DNA of 64,000 nt from Desmonostoc geniculatum HA4340-LM1 (GTDB lineage Bacteria; Cyanobacteriota; Cyanobacteriia; Cyanobacteriales; Nostocaceae): the NCBI GenBank assembly GCA_019359545.1, contig JAHHHB010000015.1, positions 1 to 64,000 on the forward strand, written 5' to 3'. Of this stretch, positions 10,041 to 62,105 are shown in pieces (position 1 is the first letter of the stretch; every line of letters starts with the position of its first letter). The position numbers and the translations under genes are program-made. Below the pieces are notes generated by a model. It made no database searches and was not told where the DNA came from. It saw nothing but the letters and a program-made list of their open reading frames with translations.

Positions 10041-10080
10041 CAGAATTCAGAATTCAGAATTCAGAATTCAGAATTCAGGA
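10041..10080. repeat. Five tandem GAATTCA heptamers
   Basis: Perfect heptamer tandem repeat directly after the kinase stop codon. The same unit is scattered through many spacers of the window (2433, 17380, 47500, 47840). Confidence 0.9.
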
Positions 10081-54081: not shown

Positions 54082-54306
54082 ATTAATTCTGGGCTTTAAG
54101 TAAAGAGCAACTAGCAAGCGGTAAGTTTTGTCGCGGGGTCTCTCTTACAAAGTTCAGAGCGTTGGTTTCTGACGCTCTAAACTTTGCCCTAAATCCACGT
54201 CACAAAACTTAATTACGAATTACGCTAGCGAGTCTTCTCCTAAAGGAAGACGCCAAAAATGAACGACTGTCATTACAATTTACTTTAATTTCTGACATTC
54301 ACATGG

Positions 54307-54335
54307 TACTTATAGTCCGTGGACTTATAGAAGTC
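54307..54335 (+). promoter_or_regulatory. C-box operator of a restriction-modification controller protein
   Basis: ACTTATAGT (54308) and GACTTATAG (54322), separated by CCGTG, form the paired near-palindromes ACT-n3-AGT expected of C-boxes bound by controller proteins of type II restriction systems. It lies about 85 bases before the controller gene. A C protein bound here would first activate, then limit, its own and the restriction gene's transcription. Confidence 0.7.
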
Positions 54336-54420
54336 ATAGCCATAAGCTAGGCAGATATAAATAAATACCTAGCTGTCAAATTTTTTTGTGCTTAGACTAG
54401 CAATCTTGGCACTTTAGGCT

Positions 54421-54666
54421 ATGAAAAAAAAGCATCCTTGGTTAGTTGAGATTGGTAAAAACATAAGAGCTATTCGAGAATCTAAGGGATTATCTCAAGA
54501 AGAACTTGCTGAATTAGTAGAGATAGACCGAACTTACATAGGAGGTATAGAAAGAGGAGAGCGTAATGTTGCCTCACTGAACCTCATAAGAATTGCTATT
54601 GCGCTTAACACTGAAGTTGGGAAGTTGTTTCCAAGGCTAGATATGCTTGAGTTGAGTTCTAGGTAG
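54421..54666 (+). CDS. XRE-family controller (C) protein of the restriction system
   Basis: 81 residues, a single helix-turn-helix domain of C-protein size (IRAIRESKGLSQEELAELVE, DRTYIGGIERGERNVASL). It matches C proteins such as C.AhdI/C.BclI in size and in the IGGIERGERN helix. It is preceded by a C-box and followed by the endonuclease gene after 6 bases, the classical C-R operon. The regulatory role is inferred from this arrangement. Confidence 0.85.
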   Translation: MKKKHPWLVEIGKNIRAIRESKGLSQEELAELVEIDRTYIGGIERGERNVASLNLIRIAIALNTEVGKLFPRLDMLELSSR

Positions 54667-54672
54667 TTAGTT

Positions 54673-55419
54673 ATGACCAGAACTCCTCCAGATTCTCTTG
54701 TGCAGTTAATTCATGAAACACTCTCAGAACTATTAGAAAATAATCCAGCTGCAACTTCATCAGAAGCTTATGTTCAGCATTATATGCAATTTGAAATAAT
54801 GCGAGCCAATATCACTCCTCGCTACTATCTTCGCATTGGTATTAATTATCATGGACAGAAAGTTCAACATCTTCGGATTGATAGTTCAACAGGTAGATTA
54901 ATTGGTTGGAATCCATTAGGAGATGCTTTGGGAACAGGAAAAAACGCAAAGGTTTTACTCGCAGGTGTCACGATTTTTGTCCGCGATCCACATGAACCGA
55001 TGATGAATGATGCCAAAATTGGTGGTGGTGATATTCCTCAAAATAAATATATTCGAGTTGAATTTAAAGCTCGTGGTTGGTTAGGGCAAACAAAAAACCT
55101 TGATGGCAAACAGCTTGAGAAGGATTTAGATTTATTAAAAGAAGACAAGGCAGATTTGCTTGTTATTTGTCTTTCAGAAACCGCTCATCGAAAATGGAGA
55201 GGTGAGGGAGTTTCACATCAAATTATCAGAAGAACTGGTATAAAAAGATTTGAACAGATTCTAGTCGATCCAGAAGAACTTTCTGGTAAAAATATCCTCA
55301 AACAACAAATTATTTTTGAGGGTTACAAATGGGTAGTTTCTACTCAAAGAGTTACTGGTTCTTTAAACTCTATTATGCCTGGGGCTGAACATTACATAAC
55401 GCTTTGTTGGACTGAATAA
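54673..55419 (+). CDS. Putative type II restriction endonuclease, PD-(D/E)XK-like
   Basis: 248 residues. VTIFVRDPHEPMMNDAKIG and then YIRVEFKARGWLGQT give an Asp followed about 18 residues later by E-F-K, the metal site of PD-(D/E)XK nucleases. QLEKDLDLLKEDKADLLVI then fits the next helix and strand. No helicase motifs, so it is not HsdR. It is cotranscribed with the C protein and convergent, 10 bases away, with the HsdS/HsdM pair. It is expected to cut an interrupted palindrome read by that methyltransferase. I do not recognise the sequence from a named enzyme. Confidence 0.68.
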   Translation: MTRTPPDSLVQLIHETLSELLENNPAATSSEAYVQHYMQFEIMRANITPRYYLRIGINYHGQKVQHLRIDSSTGRLIGWNPLGDALGTGKNAKVLLAGVTIFVRDPHEPMMNDAKIGGGDIPQNKYIRVEFKARGWLGQTKNLDGKQLEKDLDLLKEDKADLLVICLSETAHRKWRGEGVSHQIIRRTGIKRFEQILVDPEELSGKNILKQQIIFEGYKWVVSTQRVTGSLNSIMPGAEHYITLCWTE

Positions 55420-55429
55420 AAACTAGCTT

Positions 55430-56278
55430 CTAAGTCAGCAATTTAGAAGTCTGATAGATTATTACTTCTGCTAAACGTTCTTGGTAAGCTTTTACCTGTG
55501 TCATTTTTACTTCTAAAGTATTGCAAATTGACATAAGGTAATCAACTCTCTCAACAATGCGTTTTTGCTCCTGAAGAGGAGGAAGAGGAATCATGATTAA
55601 ACTAAATTCTTTACCTGATATTTCTTTAAAAGTTGTTCCAGAAGCTTGGTAATCTATCTCTTTAGCAGCAAATTTTAAAAAGTAGTAAATGTATTCACTC
55701 ATTTCTATATAGAAAGGAACGCATGATTTAAAGCCCTGATTTGTGCATAAATCATTCTTAGCAATGGCAACATACCCTATAGGCGCACGACTTGAGAACA
55801 AAACAGTGCCTGTTGGCATTAGCTGACATGAACTCTTTTGTAATCCAAGAAGACTAATATCTTTTTTGCCTCGACTAATAAATTTACCTGGTAATCTATA
55901 TAAGTCAGATGGAGTGATCCAAGGAATACCATCATCAGTATAGTATTCAGATTGATTTGTTCTCGGAGTGCCTCCTCCTACAACTCTCCCAATATCTCCA
56001 ATACGTACCCATTCCCAACTTTGCGGAATATTGAATGGTATTTCAGTTGACTTAATGGCAATAGATAGAAAGTTATTTCTGACTTTTTTTTCCTCAATTA
56101 AACGCTCTTTTTCAGTTTTTATTTTCCCCAGCAAATAGGAAGTAGGCTCGTCATTAATATCTTGAGAAACAAGCCTTCCACAAACTGCTAAATGCAAAAT
56201 AAGTTCCCGAAGTTTAGCAATTCCATTAGGAGCATCTATCAATATCTCAAAATTTTGTAAAAATCTTTCAACATCCAT
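55430..56278 (-). CDS. Half-length type I-like specificity subunit (HsdS) with one TRD
   Basis: 282 residues, about half the usual HsdS. A conserved helical region (LRELILHLAVCGRLVSQD, EKIKTEKERLIEE-like) comes first, then one target recognition domain (about 85-235: IPQSWEWVRIGDIGRVVGGG, GTVLFSSRAPIGYVAIA) and one closing conserved region (IPLPPLQEQKRIVERVDYLM). Only one TRD and one pair of conserved arms are present. Half-size subunits dimerise and recognise interrupted palindromes. The start is 3 bases after the HsdM stop, so the two are coupled. Confidence 0.87.
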   Translation of the reverse strand: MDVERFLQNFEILIDAPNGIAKLRELILHLAVCGRLVSQDINDEPTSYLLGKIKTEKERLIEEKKVRNNFLSIAIKSTEIPFNIPQSWEWVRIGDIGRVVGGGTPRTNQSEYYTDDGIPWITPSDLYRLPGKFISRGKKDISLLGLQKSSCQLMPTGTVLFSSRAPIGYVAIAKNDLCTNQGFKSCVPFYIEMSEYIYYFLKFAAKEIDYQASGTTFKEISGKEFSLIMIPLPPLQEQKRIVERVDYLMSICNTLEVKMTQVKAYQERLAEVIIYQTSKLLT

Positions 56279-56281
56279 TTT

Positions 56282-57721
56282 CTAATTATTCTTCTCTAAA
56301 GATGATTTGAGTTCAAACTTTAATTTGTTACGCACTTCACTTAGCTCTGCTGTAAGTATTTGATACTCTTTGAGCATTGCATCTAGATTGATATGTTCCG
56401 CTTTATTCTTGTGGGGGTTCTTGATATCTAGGTTGTAATTATTAGCCTTCAAGTCTCCAATTGAAACCTGCCAAGCAAATTCATTTACCTCCCGATTTTC
56501 CCACCATTCTTGCTCTGGTGCAAACTCCTCAAAGTAAATCGGCTTGGTTTTGGAGTAAGACTTATAACCTGCTGGGTAAGGGTGTTCGTAATACCAAATC
56601 TTTTCTGTCGGTTCGCCTTTGGTGAAAAATAACAGATTAGTTTTAATGCCCGTGTAGGGATTAAATACGCCATTTGGTAAGCGGACAATTGTATGCAGGT
56701 TGCAATTTTGCAGCAGTTTTTCTTTAATGCGCGTCTTTACACCTTCCCCAAATAGCGTACCGTCCGGTAGAACTATAGCGCCTCTACCACCTTTTTTGAG
56801 CAAATGAGCAATAAGTACCAGAAATAAATCTGCCGTTTCTCGTGTGCGAAAGGTAGAGGGAAAATTGTCCTCAATTCCATCTTCTTCCATTCCACCAAAA
56901 GGCGGATTAGTGATAATTATATCTACACATTCTTGAGGATTGTAATCGTGCAATGGTCGAGCCAAAGTATTCTCATGTTCTGCTTCCGGTACATCAATAC
57001 CATGCAAAATCAGATTTGTTACACAAAGGTTATAAGGTAACGGCTTTTTCTCAGTACCGCGAATCGTGCGTTGCAGAATTTCTGGGACATCAGCGCTTTG
57101 GAAATGTTGGTGAATGTAATCAATTGCTGCTGTTAAAAAGCCACCTGTACCGCAAGCAGGATCAAGTACAATTTCGCCCAATTGTGGCTTTACCCTGTCT
57201 ACAATAAACTTTGTTACTGCACGCGGAGTATAATATTCCCCTGCATTTCCCGCGCTCTGCAAATCTTTGAGAATCTTTTCATAAATTTCGCTGAACAGTT
57301 TTTTCTGCTCTTTTTTATTAAAATCAACTTCGTTAAGCTTATTAATTACTTGGCGGATGAGAGTGCCATTTTTCATATAGTTATAGACATCCTCAAACAC
57401 CTTGCCAATCATCCGCCCACGGGGTTCAGTTGCCGTATTTCTCAGTTCCTTAAGGGTTTTAAATAAAGCATTGTCCACAAAATCTAGTAAAGCATCTCCC
57501 GTGATACCTTCTGAATCTGCTGCCCAATTACGCCAACGCAACCCTTCAGGAATTGGAGATTTATAATTATCTTCTACCCGTTCATATTCATCTTCACGGG
57601 CATCAAAAACTTTGAGGAAAATCATCCAAACTAACTGGCTGATGCGTTGCGCGTCACCATCTACGCCCGCATCCTTCCGCATGATATCTTGAATAGTTTT
57701 AATTGTAGTGCTGATTGACAT
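56282..57721 (-). CDS. Type I-like N6-adenine DNA methyltransferase (HsdM)
   Basis: 479 residues. An N-terminal helical domain (QRISQLVWMIFLKVFDARE) precedes the Rossmann MTase with motif I (VLDPACGTGGFLTAAIDYI), motif IV (ITNPPFGGMEEDG) and LPDGTLFGEGVKTRIKEKLL. It methylates adenine with the adjacent half-length HsdS. No HsdR follows on either side. Together with the convergent C and endonuclease genes it makes up a type IIH-like (AhdI-style) system. Confidence 0.92.
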   Translation of the reverse strand: MSISTTIKTIQDIMRKDAGVDGDAQRISQLVWMIFLKVFDAREDEYERVEDNYKSPIPEGLRWRNWAADSEGITGDALLDFVDNALFKTLKELRNTATEPRGRMIGKVFEDVYNYMKNGTLIRQVINKLNEVDFNKKEQKKLFSEIYEKILKDLQSAGNAGEYYTPRAVTKFIVDRVKPQLGEIVLDPACGTGGFLTAAIDYIHQHFQSADVPEILQRTIRGTEKKPLPYNLCVTNLILHGIDVPEAEHENTLARPLHDYNPQECVDIIITNPPFGGMEEDGIEDNFPSTFRTRETADLFLVLIAHLLKKGGRGAIVLPDGTLFGEGVKTRIKEKLLQNCNLHTIVRLPNGVFNPYTGIKTNLLFFTKGEPTEKIWYYEHPYPAGYKSYSKTKPIYFEEFAPEQEWWENREVNEFAWQVSIGDLKANNYNLDIKNPHKNKAEHINLDAMLKEYQILTAELSEVRNKLKFELKSSLEKNN

Positions 57722-57814
57722 TACTTCGACTCACTTCTCGCTTGAGAATATCTTATTAATTCGTAGTTTTGTAGCGATTGTATTAAAAGTCAAGAGATCG
57801 CTAACCTATCATGA

Positions 57815-57931
57815 TTGATAGGTGCGACACCAGCTAAGCAAGAGATTTATTTTGCAGTTAATTGGCCAAGTTATGGTAAATCAGAAACTGGGGTAGTAGA
57901 AATTACAGAACTAACACGTAAGCATTTTTAG
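57815..57931 (+). pseudogene. Possible small gene remnant between HsdM and the nuclease
   Basis: Open frame of 38 codons from a TTG, ending TAG. The translation (PAKQEIYFAVNWPSYGKSET, then GVVEITELTRKHF) has normal protein composition, but I recognise no family. It lies between two minus-strand genes. Expressed small protein or relic cannot be decided. Confidence 0.22.
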
Positions 57932-57945
57932 ATATCATAAGTTAC

Positions 57946-58800
57946 CTAACTATGAGTTCTTAAACTGGGTAATGGATACGATTGATGCTGCTTAAAATCA
58001 GCAAACTCGCAAATAGAATTAAATGGACAAAAGCGGCAGTGAGAACCAGGATTGGGAGGGAAAATTTTACTAAAATCACTCGTTTCTTCTTGATATCTTT
58101 GTAAATCTTGCTGGTGTTTGTGGGCAATATTCGCTAAATCAAATTTTAAGGATTCTAATTCGGTATTATTAATGCTAATTAACTCAGATTTTTTACAAAT
58201 TTCGAGATTGTAAAATGAGGCGACAGCTTGTCTACCGGGATAAAGATAACGAGCCGCTAATAAATAAACTAAAGCCTGTCGTCGGTCAAAAGCTGATTTT
58301 CCAGTTTTGAAATCCAAAATGTGTAAAGTGCGATCGCTCTCAATGAAAACGCAGTCCATGGCCGCATATAAGCGAAAGCAATAATCTTGTTGTTCAATGA
58401 CAATCGGCTTGGGAAAACCTTCATCACCGGGAGTTAATTGGATAATATTTTTATCCAACAGCAACGGCGCATCATGATATTTTTTCAAAATTTGCAGCAC
58501 CCGTTGGCGGACTTGTTCGCTTGAGGTGCCTAATTTTAGTAGCTGTGCAACTTTTTCTACGCCATCTGATTGCTGCAAAAGGTGTCTGTGATTATGAAAC
58601 TCATAAACGCCTTTTTGAGCAAGTATCCCAATCCGCTGGGGTGCGGTGGCTTTCGCTAACAGTGCTTTGACTTGTGGTTCATGTTGCCGCGCTTTGATAA
58701 ACCCCCGTCTCATCTGGCAATGCCAGCGTTCTTGCCCTGACGCTGGGGCAACTAAAGACCAAAGGTGATAACTGGCAAAAGGTCGATCGGGGGTTGACAT
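57946..58800 (-). CDS. Cas4/RecB-like PD-(D/E)XK nuclease with Fe-S cysteines
   Basis: 284 residues. An Asp in AAMDCVFIESDRTLHILDFKTGK gives the D...DxK metal site; QALVYLLAARYLYPG is the following QxxxY motif. The C-terminal CRFCPFNSIC gives three Cys, and an upstream Cys (NLEICKK) could complete a 4Fe-4S cluster. Single-strand or end-processing nuclease activity is likely. No cas genes or CRISPR array are nearby, so I do not call it Cas4. It starts 147 bases before the divergent phosphoglucomutase gene. Confidence 0.82.
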   Translation of the reverse strand: MSTPDRPFASYHLWSLVAPASGQERWHCQMRRGFIKARQHEPQVKALLAKATAPQRIGILAQKGVYEFHNHRHLLQQSDGVEKVAQLLKLGTSSEQVRQRVLQILKKYHDAPLLLDKNIIQLTPGDEGFPKPIVIEQQDYCFRLYAAMDCVFIESDRTLHILDFKTGKSAFDRRQALVYLLAARYLYPGRQAVASFYNLEICKKSELISINNTELESLKFDLANIAHKHQQDLQRYQEETSDFSKIFPPNPGSHCRFCPFNSICEFADFKQHQSYPLPSLRTHS

Positions 58801-60829: not shown

Positions 60830-61096
60830 ATGGCGTATCAGTGGGATAGGGATAAAGCAGCAGCCAATCTTCGCAAGCATGACGTTGACTTTGCTGATGC
60901 AGTAACTGTATTTTCTGATGATTTAGCAATTACCATCACAGATGAACGTTTTGATGAACAGAGGTTTATTACTACTGGTATGAATGCTTTCGGTCGAGTC
61001 CTAGTAGTTGTGTATACATGGCGCAATGATGAGATTCGATTAATTTCTGCTCGCAAAGCTACGCGCTATGAACAACAACAGTATGGGGAAGGATAA
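60830..61096 (+). CDS. brnT: BrnT-family ribonuclease toxin
   Basis: 88 residues. QWDRDKAAANLRKHDVDFAD, ITDERFDEQRFITTG, RVLVVVYTWRNDEIRLISARKAT and the final RYEQQQY are the BrnT signature, including the D, H, E, R and R residues of the RelE-like RNase fold. It cleaves RNA unless bound by BrnA. It precedes BrnA by 3 bases, the usual toxin-first order. Intact. Confidence 0.93.
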   Translation: MAYQWDRDKAAANLRKHDVDFADAVTVFSDDLAITITDERFDEQRFITTGMNAFGRVLVVVYTWRNDEIRLISARKATRYEQQQYGEG

Positions 61097-61099
61097 ATA

Positions 61100-61360
61100 A
61101 TGGAAGCTGAGTATGATTTTAGCCAAGGTAAGCGAGGGGCGATTGAACCAACACCAACAGGCAAAACTCGAATTACAATTCGCCTAGATGATGAAGTACT
61201 AGCATGGTTTCGTGACCAAGTTCACGCAGCAGGTGGGGGAAATTACCAAACTTTGATTAACGATACCTTGCGTGAGTATATTCAGCAGCGCCGTGAACCT
61301 TTAGAAGAGACATTACGGCGAGTATTGCGAGAGGAACTTGAAAGAATAGGAAAATATTGA
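61100..61360 (+). CDS. brnA: BrnA-family antitoxin (ribbon-helix-helix)
   Basis: 86 residues. TGKTRITIRLDDEVLAWFRD is the RHH strand and helix, and YQTLINDTLREYIQQ the second helix; the C-terminal helix (EETLRRVLREELERI) is longer than in many BrnA. It neutralises BrnT and should bind the palindrome upstream. Intact. The next gene, a DUF433 fragment, starts 6 bases on. Confidence 0.93.
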   Translation: MEAEYDFSQGKRGAIEPTPTGKTRITIRLDDEVLAWFRDQVHAAGGGNYQTLINDTLREYIQQRREPLEETLRRVLREELERIGKY

Positions 61361-61531: not shown

Positions 61532-61686
61532 AAGCAAAAATGGCAGATAGAGTTTTCAAAGCTTTTATCTAGGTTTTTCAATCATATTTTGGCGATCGCC
61601 AGCAATCAAAAGCAACCTCCAAAAGCCTGGAACAACGTATTTACGTTGATACACAAAATAGTTCTTTTGTACAGTGCGTAAGTCCT
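61511..61686. mobile_element. 176-bp miniature inverted-repeat element at a TA site
   Basis: AGGACTTACGCA at the left and TGCGTAAGTCCT at the right are perfect 12-bp inverted ends. Extended pairing of TTGACATAAAA with TTTTGTACAG continues inside. It is flanked by TA on both sides, as for IS630/Tc1-mariner transposition. No coding sequence inside. It separates two convergent, both 3'-truncated toxin-antitoxin genes. Confidence 0.75.
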
Positions 61687-61918
61687 ATGACTCTTCTTTG
61701 ATTCGGTAAATAACAATATATGGCGTGCTAGAAATTACTAACTCTCTTGTGCCTTCTACACGTCCAGGTCGCCCCATAAAAGGGTAATTCTCAAGTTGAC
61801 TGGCAGCAACTTGAATCTTCAATATCACTTCCTGCGCTGCTTTTGGATTCTCTTTCAGGATGTATCTATGGGCTTGTTCCAAGTTACGAAGCGCACGGCG
61901 CAGCCACTTAATCTGCAT
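61685..61918 (-). CDS. RelE/ParE-family toxin, C-terminus truncated
   Basis: 77 residues from ATG 61918, which overlaps the antitoxin remnant's end (an upstream in-frame start at 61933 is less likely). IKWLRRALRNLEQAHRYILK, LENYPFMGRPGRVEGTRELV and TPYIVIYRIKE are ParE hallmarks. The protein ends IKEES at a TAG created by the miniature element, so the last strand (normally VEILRVLHGARR-like) is absent. ParE needs that end for toxicity in known members, so it is probably inactive. Confidence 0.75.
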   Translation of the reverse strand: MQIKWLRRALRNLEQAHRYILKENPKAAQEVILKIQVAASQLENYPFMGRPGRVEGTRELVISSTPYIVIYRIKEES

Positions 61919-62105
61919 TTGTGAGTCTTGCAAAAGTCGCTTTTACTTCTTCATCACTGGCAAAGTCTCCAGCATCAGCTTCAGCAATCCCCTTTTGAAT
62001 CTCATCTATTTGCCACTGATACATTTCTAGATAAGCGGCTACTGCCTCATTAAGTACGTAACTGCGATCGCGGTTGATTCCAGATGCGATCGCACTTTTA
62101 TAAAA
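61908..62105 (-). pseudogene. ParD/RHH-type antitoxin remnant lacking its N-terminus
   Basis: The frame reads INRDRSYVLNEAVAAYLEMY, then QWQIDEIQKGIAEADAGDFA and a stop that overlaps the toxin start. That is the standard end of RHH antitoxins paired with ParE. It has no start codon and is preceded by TAA (62106-62108). Beyond that stop the same frame carries 49 codons (ending LASVRAALDDPDHEWTF) of another small, unrecognised protein. The first RHH strand is lost, so the pair is non-functional. Confidence 0.6.

Follow-up and report, generated by a model that had tools for sequence, protein, structure and literature searches.

We analysed a stretch of 64,000 nucleotides from the cyanobacterium Desmonostoc geniculatum HA4340-LM1 (GCA_019359545.1, JAHHHB010000015.1, positions 1 to 64,000), called the window below, and give coordinates in it unless a locus number is added. 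At 54085..57946 it holds a restriction-modification (R-M) island that probably encodes a type IIH system (AhdI-like, or "type 1 1/2") under the control of a C protein, one that arose recently out of a type I system. Judged from its sequence, the system is of a known kind in class and function. Most likely, a swap of the target recognition domain (TRD) that carried an endonuclease along with it turned type I into type IIH, a step that is read from the sequence in a second locus (G157, a genome from another family of the same order) and that we infer for the window. This origin, well supported in G157 and extrapolated to the window, is new as far as we have seen; in the openly licensed literature, at the level of titles and abstract openings, no report of an endonuclease-bearing module inside hsdS was found.

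Type IIH systems, as in AhdI, are described as a type IIP-like endonuclease combined with an M2S2 type I-like methyltransferase (PMC4081073, PMC3874165). M.AhdI is such an M2S2 enzyme with the target GACN5GTC (PMC2878638), and the regulation of AhdI has been modelled (PMC11736437). In a 2013 review, M.AhdI, M.PshAI and M.BsaBI are named as enzymes that may represent the ancestral form (PMC3874165). Like AhdI, and also M.PshAI and M.BsaBI, the window has a separate M and a half-size S, a separate protein predicted to be a type II endonuclease, a C-box and no HsdR, and its C protein belongs to the C.AhdI family. The likeness in R, M and S is one of description, and C alone was compared by sequence. 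The window differs from AhdI in that its HsdM is closely related to current type I HsdM.

An earlier note on this DNA had named four genes and an operator, and all of them were found at the positions it gave. The putative C-box (54308..54330, + strand, upstream of the C gene) reads ACTTATAGT-CCGTG-GACTTATAG, a motif which we take to be of the C-box type. The note described it as paired ACT-n3-AGT operators, which holds perfectly for the first half; the second half reads ACT-n3-AG only. A search that allowed up to 3 mismatches gave a single exact match in the window, and a match in 7 of 100 shuffles (mean 0.07). Because the pattern had been typed from the window sequence itself, this uniqueness is not independent evidence, and better evidence comes from G157, where the C-box is kept except for one spacer base. 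The C gene (54421..54666, + strand) encodes a controller protein of 81 amino acids from the helix-turn-helix family, the nearest solved relative of which is C.AhdI (1Y7Y; best PDB match, 62 bits, E 3.5e-16), and which also matches the PADLOC model Control_protein (E 3.8e-19). It is followed by the gene for a predicted type II restriction endonuclease of 248 amino acids (54673..55419, + strand), residues 1-246 of which are covered by the PADLOC model PDLC03587 REase_II (E 5.2e-96).

The R and S genes converge, their ends lying about 10 bp apart. The half-size HsdS (55430..56278, - strand) has 282 amino acids and one TRD, seen as a single Methylase_S match (E 5.6e-32) with the TRD placed at 55508-56026, as against 559-605 amino acids for the two-TRD S found in a single frame in relatives. 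The HsdM (56282..57721, - strand; 479 amino acids) is a separate type I-like N6-adenine methyltransferase subunit of the gamma class (N6_Mtase E 9.4e-75, HsdM_N E 2e-13), and its translation contains NPPF. These domain matches bear out the convergent single-TRD specificity subunit and type I-like methyltransferase of the earlier note, and its assignment of the locus to the AhdI-like class is supported by the AhdI-type gene set, by C.AhdI as the best solved relative of C and by the match to a type II endonuclease model. From what is known of these families, HsdM and the half-size HsdS, assembled as M2S2, would methylate adenines in an interrupted palindrome, and the endonuclease would cut that palindrome if it is unmethylated. 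The C protein would bind the C-box, first delaying and then boosting the C-R operon, so that methylation precedes cutting.

The note had also stated that there is no helicase subunit, and none was found, either near the locus or elsewhere in the genome of HA4340-LM1 (7.36 Mb in 173 contigs). No HsdR match was present in the window, which includes 6.3 kb upstream of M. With the intact HsdR of another genome (G597) as the query, the genome search returned only a helicase fragment (E 0.19), and TIGR00348 gave one match in the genome, below the cut-off. Five HSDR_N matches in the genome were rejected as HsdR, their open frames being just 103-250 amino acids long. A plain type I system was rejected, as no HsdR match was found in the window or the rest of the genome; the S, moreover, has one TRD, not two. 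Besides the window S, the genome has three Methylase_S matches, two of them in one hsdS of 453 amino acids and one in a frame of 190 amino acids. The 453-amino-acid hsdS, with two TRDs, is an orphan on contig C159 (L093 8862-10223), adjoining an HsdM remnant and with no hsdR near.

We then placed the window HsdM among its relatives. A scan of genome contigs with it returned 59 loci. The eight closest near-full-length HsdM are 87-91% identical and all cyanobacterial (L016-L022, L055). The neighbouring hsdR is in a single frame in L016-L019 and L021, split in L020, cut by the contig end in L022 and absent within 8 kb in L055, and a two-TRD S in one frame is present in L016, L017, L019 and L055. 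L016, L017 and L019 are intact type I operons throughout, L127 (G638; 91%) is a fourth, and the window HsdM is 89-91% identical to the HsdM of these. In a tree of 57 HsdM (6 of 63 rows, broken or partial, having been excluded), both type IIH HsdM nest among type I HsdM, and 45 of the 57 have a single-frame hsdR nearby. Across the order, HsdM was found at E <= 1e-150 in 31 of 378 genomes. A single-frame HsdR lies within about 9 kb in 23 of these 31 loci, it is broken, partial or at a contig edge in 7 (G157 and the type I relative G481 included), and the window is the only locus with none.

Two smaller sets of HsdM, of 13 and 18 rows, were chosen by hand from cyanobacteria, the larger dropping L026 and adding L127 and L131-L135. 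In the 18-row tree the window HsdM falls in a group of 9 with HsdM from Nostocaceae and near kin (support 99/98 on protein, 100/99 on DNA), and the HsdM of G157 groups with that of G481, a locus with a full S (100/100 on DNA). A sister relationship of the window and G157 HsdM was rejected with the 18 rows by the approximately unbiased (AU) test (p 9e-5 for protein, 4e-5 for DNA and 2e-45 for the first 1200 DNA columns). The synonymous divergence (dS) between the window and G157 is 0.44 for C, 0.48 for R, 0.69 for the TRD of S, 1.11 for S residues 1-70 and 1.99 for M, while three type I HsdM differ from the window HsdM by only 0.46-0.61. On sequence, then, the HsdM of the window and G157 are not sisters, while the module is common to both.

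The G157 locus (L010) has hsdR, hsdM and a half S in that order, and these converge on R and C. DNA identity between the window and G157 is 89.8% for C, 85.1% for R, 80.7% for S and 76.8% for M. With ratios of nonsynonymous to synonymous divergence (dN/dS) of 0.06 (C), 0.19 (R) and 0.18 (S), selection has maintained all three. The module common to the two loci spans 54304..56107 (left edge approximate) and consists of the TRD and C-terminus of HsdS, the endonuclease, the C gene and the C-box. From 56110 to 54412, which makes 17 blocks of 100 columns, identity is 73-94%; it is 65% in the adjoining leader and at most 57% beyond.

Comparison of G157 with G481 located what lies around the module. 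The hsdR and hsdM genes of the two align at 86-88%. On one side of the module stands the 5' end of hsdS (158 bp at 86.7%), and on the other, beginning about 60 bp past the C-box in G157, a stretch of 151 bp (88%) that comprises the hsdS 3' end and 44 bp of flank. Between these hsdS ends G157 has the TRD, the half-S C-terminus, R, C and the C-box, about 1.85 kb that replaces about 1.4 kb of hsdS. A deletion of 256 bp, located at a 7-bp direct repeat, removes about residues 376-458 of the G157 hsdR and shifts its frame. The remainder is open, and its two parts show identities of 83 and 78% with L017 and of 91 and 89% with G481. In the window as in G157, the start of the half S resembles that of the first half of a full S, and at the C-terminus the closer match is to the end of the second half. 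We considered a simple truncation of the resident S in G157 and rejected it, as its TRD and S C-terminus are related to those of the window rather than to the resident S. Next to S in G157, at the spacing found in type I loci, lies the end of a gene judged PIN-like by eye; 7 other loci have such a gene at this place.

We take these data to argue for a type I origin because the HsdM lineages are separate while the module is shared, and because G157 has both the hsdR deletion and the hsdS ends. In the mechanism that we propose, a resident type I hsdS would have recombined within its conserved regions and exchanged its inside for a module of another TRD, an endonuclease gene and its C gene. This single event would have changed the specificity, made S half-size and supplied the matching nuclease. 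Afterwards hsdR would have been dispensable, broken as it is in G157 and gone as it is in the window. The window would represent a later stage, in which a 3.9-kb unit is left at a site that is empty in relatives, with no trace of hsdR or of an hsdS end. Somewhat more tentatively, we favour the view that TRD, cognate endonuclease and C gene form a mobile module that recombines into the conserved ends of type I hsdS genes and turns a type I system into a type II system in one step, with at least two separate type I operons converted in this way.

The system is rare. Of 386 cyanobacterial genomes sampled, 2 have the endonuclease by protein and by profile search; 388 genomes of the order likewise gave 2, the same pair (HA4340-LM1 and G157), and 14 control genomes gave none. 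No relatives were found in plasmids or phages, nor in viral or genome contig collections, where exact short peptides were required and the tests are weak.

Several points weigh against the proposed origin or its details. Type IIH loci of this kind number only two in the sample. The sister relationship of the G157 and G481 HsdM is supported at just 81/43 on the HsdM protein tree, and the earlier AU test with 13 rows did not reject sister HsdM of the window and G157 on protein (p 0.065; DNA p 0.005). G481 itself falls short of an intact type I locus, since a frameshift near the start divides its hsdR, and the hsdR deletion of G157 is known from the assembly. G157 has two hsdS 3' remnants, at 10043 and 11671; the second (L010 11671-11784), 1.6 kb past the first, has an in-frame stop, suggesting that this locus underwent more than one event. 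For the window, an hsdS remnant was sought around the C-box and none was found, and the start of its S is not especially close to that of any type I S, so that its conversion is argued by way of G157. The sigma-70 scan found no promoter on the correct strand ahead of C or M; in the promoter and terminator scan of the window, promoter-like sites were fewer than in shuffles, hence uninformative. Finally, a half-size S of about 280 amino acids also stands beside a single-frame hsdR in G597 (L092 8569-9411) and G647 (L130 7007-7849).

These last two loci led us to reject a half-size S as a marker of type IIH. They also indicate that half-S type I enzymes (symmetrical type I systems) exist naturally, and such enzymes could be an earlier step toward type IIH. 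In another genome (G498, L139 10886-12385), a stop codon divides hsdS into open frames of 250 and 249 amino acids.

A variant that is compatible with conversion from type I has the module captured once, after which the window lineage swapped its HsdM with a local type I hsdM. We regard this history as possible rather than probable. It would give what is seen, window and G157 HsdM with separate type I relatives and C, R and TRD shared, a pattern expected from either history. However, the M-S junctions differ, with the PIN-like remnant in G157 and a direct junction in the window, which two captures fit slightly better.

It is unlikely that the window holds a decayed type I locus beside an unrelated C-endonuclease fragment and not one working system. 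The loss of hsdR and the halved S would agree with decay, and a half-size S beside an intact hsdR is known in other loci. Yet the same convergent layout is present in two genomes of different families, the four frames are open, and the dN/dS values of 0.06-0.19 for C, R and S speak for function. Moreover, an endonuclease that lacks its cognate methyltransferase would be lethal.

Still less likely is that the 248-amino-acid protein is not a nuclease, a reading prompted by the rest of the database searches. The protein had no match in NCBIfam or PHROGs. Against PDB it gave none as a single sequence and just two, both above E 1, as a two-sequence profile. Its only Pfam match, to the MscS C-terminal family, was sub-threshold (E 0.12), and no match to a non-nuclease family thus stood above the cut-off. 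What speaks for a nuclease is the PADLOC type II endonuclease match over residues 1-246 (E 5e-96), the position of the gene directly after the C gene, and an E-F-K motif at residues 130-132, read by eye. The earlier note had called the endonuclease new, which holds for NCBIfam, PHROGs and PDB but not for PADLOC, where the family is already modelled. The remaining alternative is an old type 1 1/2 lineage from which type I descended, in line with the general proposal of the 2013 review (PMC3874165). Here it is strongly disfavoured and barely credible, since the HsdM nests inside type I HsdM and G157 has a broken hsdR and hsdS ends.

The window system can also be set beside other known systems. 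The cyanobacterial type I operons (L016, L017, L019 and L127, and L131 with a split hsdR) have HsdM up to 91% identical to that of the window and S conserved regions of the same type; the window differs from them in having no hsdR, one TRD instead of two, and in addition a C gene and an endonuclease. The engineered M-half-S enzymes EcoR124I delta-50, EcoDXXI delta-C and SauSTORF499P resemble the window system in that its half-size S, by analogy, should form a dimer that recognises a palindrome (PMC3874165, PMC6158711). Engineered M-half-S enzymes are reported to methylate a palindrome, in a paper that also proposes a path starting from type I (PMC6158711); a 2018 study constructed such steps artificially, going from type I in the direction of type II. 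In contrast, the window system is natural and has its own predicted type II endonuclease instead of HsdR. In BstXI, too, a type I-like methyltransferase serves a type II system (PMC3874165), but the BstXI S has two TRDs and the window S one.

The locus bears on the direction of evolution among type I, type 1 1/2 and type II. The window locus and its sister in G157 appear to catch a natural step from type I to type IIH, with hsdR broken and hsdS ends around the module. The direction here would be opposite to that proposed for the class in the 2013 review. The locus further points to a way in which a cell may gain a new endonuclease together with the matching methylation and survive, because the TRD that sets the methylation travels with the nuclease.

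The C-terminal tail of the window HsdM (56285..56407, - strand) is unusually changed relative to type I HsdM. Of 26 changes at columns invariant among 7 related HsdM, it holds 9 (Fisher p 2.3e-6, with the tail boundary set after the changes had been seen), and the same comparison gave 4 of 31 for G157 and 3 of 32 for G481. The HsdM C-terminus is required for assembly, according to the title of a reference cited in PMC2878638. The tail may have adapted to the half S, because it is expected to contact S. Residues 1-45 of the window HsdS are 51-71% identical to type I S and 67% to G157. Relatives of its TRD are 1YF2, the PADLOC model Specificity_II PDLC03592 and the first TRD of a type I S on a plasmid of Pseudoalteromonas sp. 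HL-AS2 (L075). This L075 TRD is 58% identical to that of the window, and the target of the L075 S would predict a half-site of the window system.

The island, 3.86 kb long, is flanked by a transglutaminase gene and a RecB-like nuclease gene. In a genome of the same genus (G643, L117) the corresponding intergenic place is 178 bp, the distance between the equivalents of 54084 and 57947. None of the 8 stretches compared has a C, R, S, M or HsdR match, and the flank from 57947 onward is present in 52 of 53 same-genus genomes, HA4340-LM1 counted. Three of the 6 compared same-genus genomes that have both flanks carry other stretches there, of about 1.7, 4.3 and 5.7 kb (L119 9736-11443, L121 2139-6466, L124 1877-7626), one of them with a glycosyltransferase-like pair (by eye). 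The site is an insertion-prone spot. At the left edge of the island, 54122-54211 contains nested inverted repeats with arms of 17 and 15 nt, and 54085-54306 has short partial copies elsewhere in the genome; this region is perhaps a small mobile element. Near the right edge, the stretch at 57762..57906 is single copy in its own genome and has partial copies elsewhere in some same-genus genomes (matches to query 33-83 and 77-177). Farther along the window, 60830-61360 and 61685-61933 hold candidates that we take to be a small gene pair resembling the BrnT/BrnA toxin-antitoxin and a RelE/ParE-like gene.

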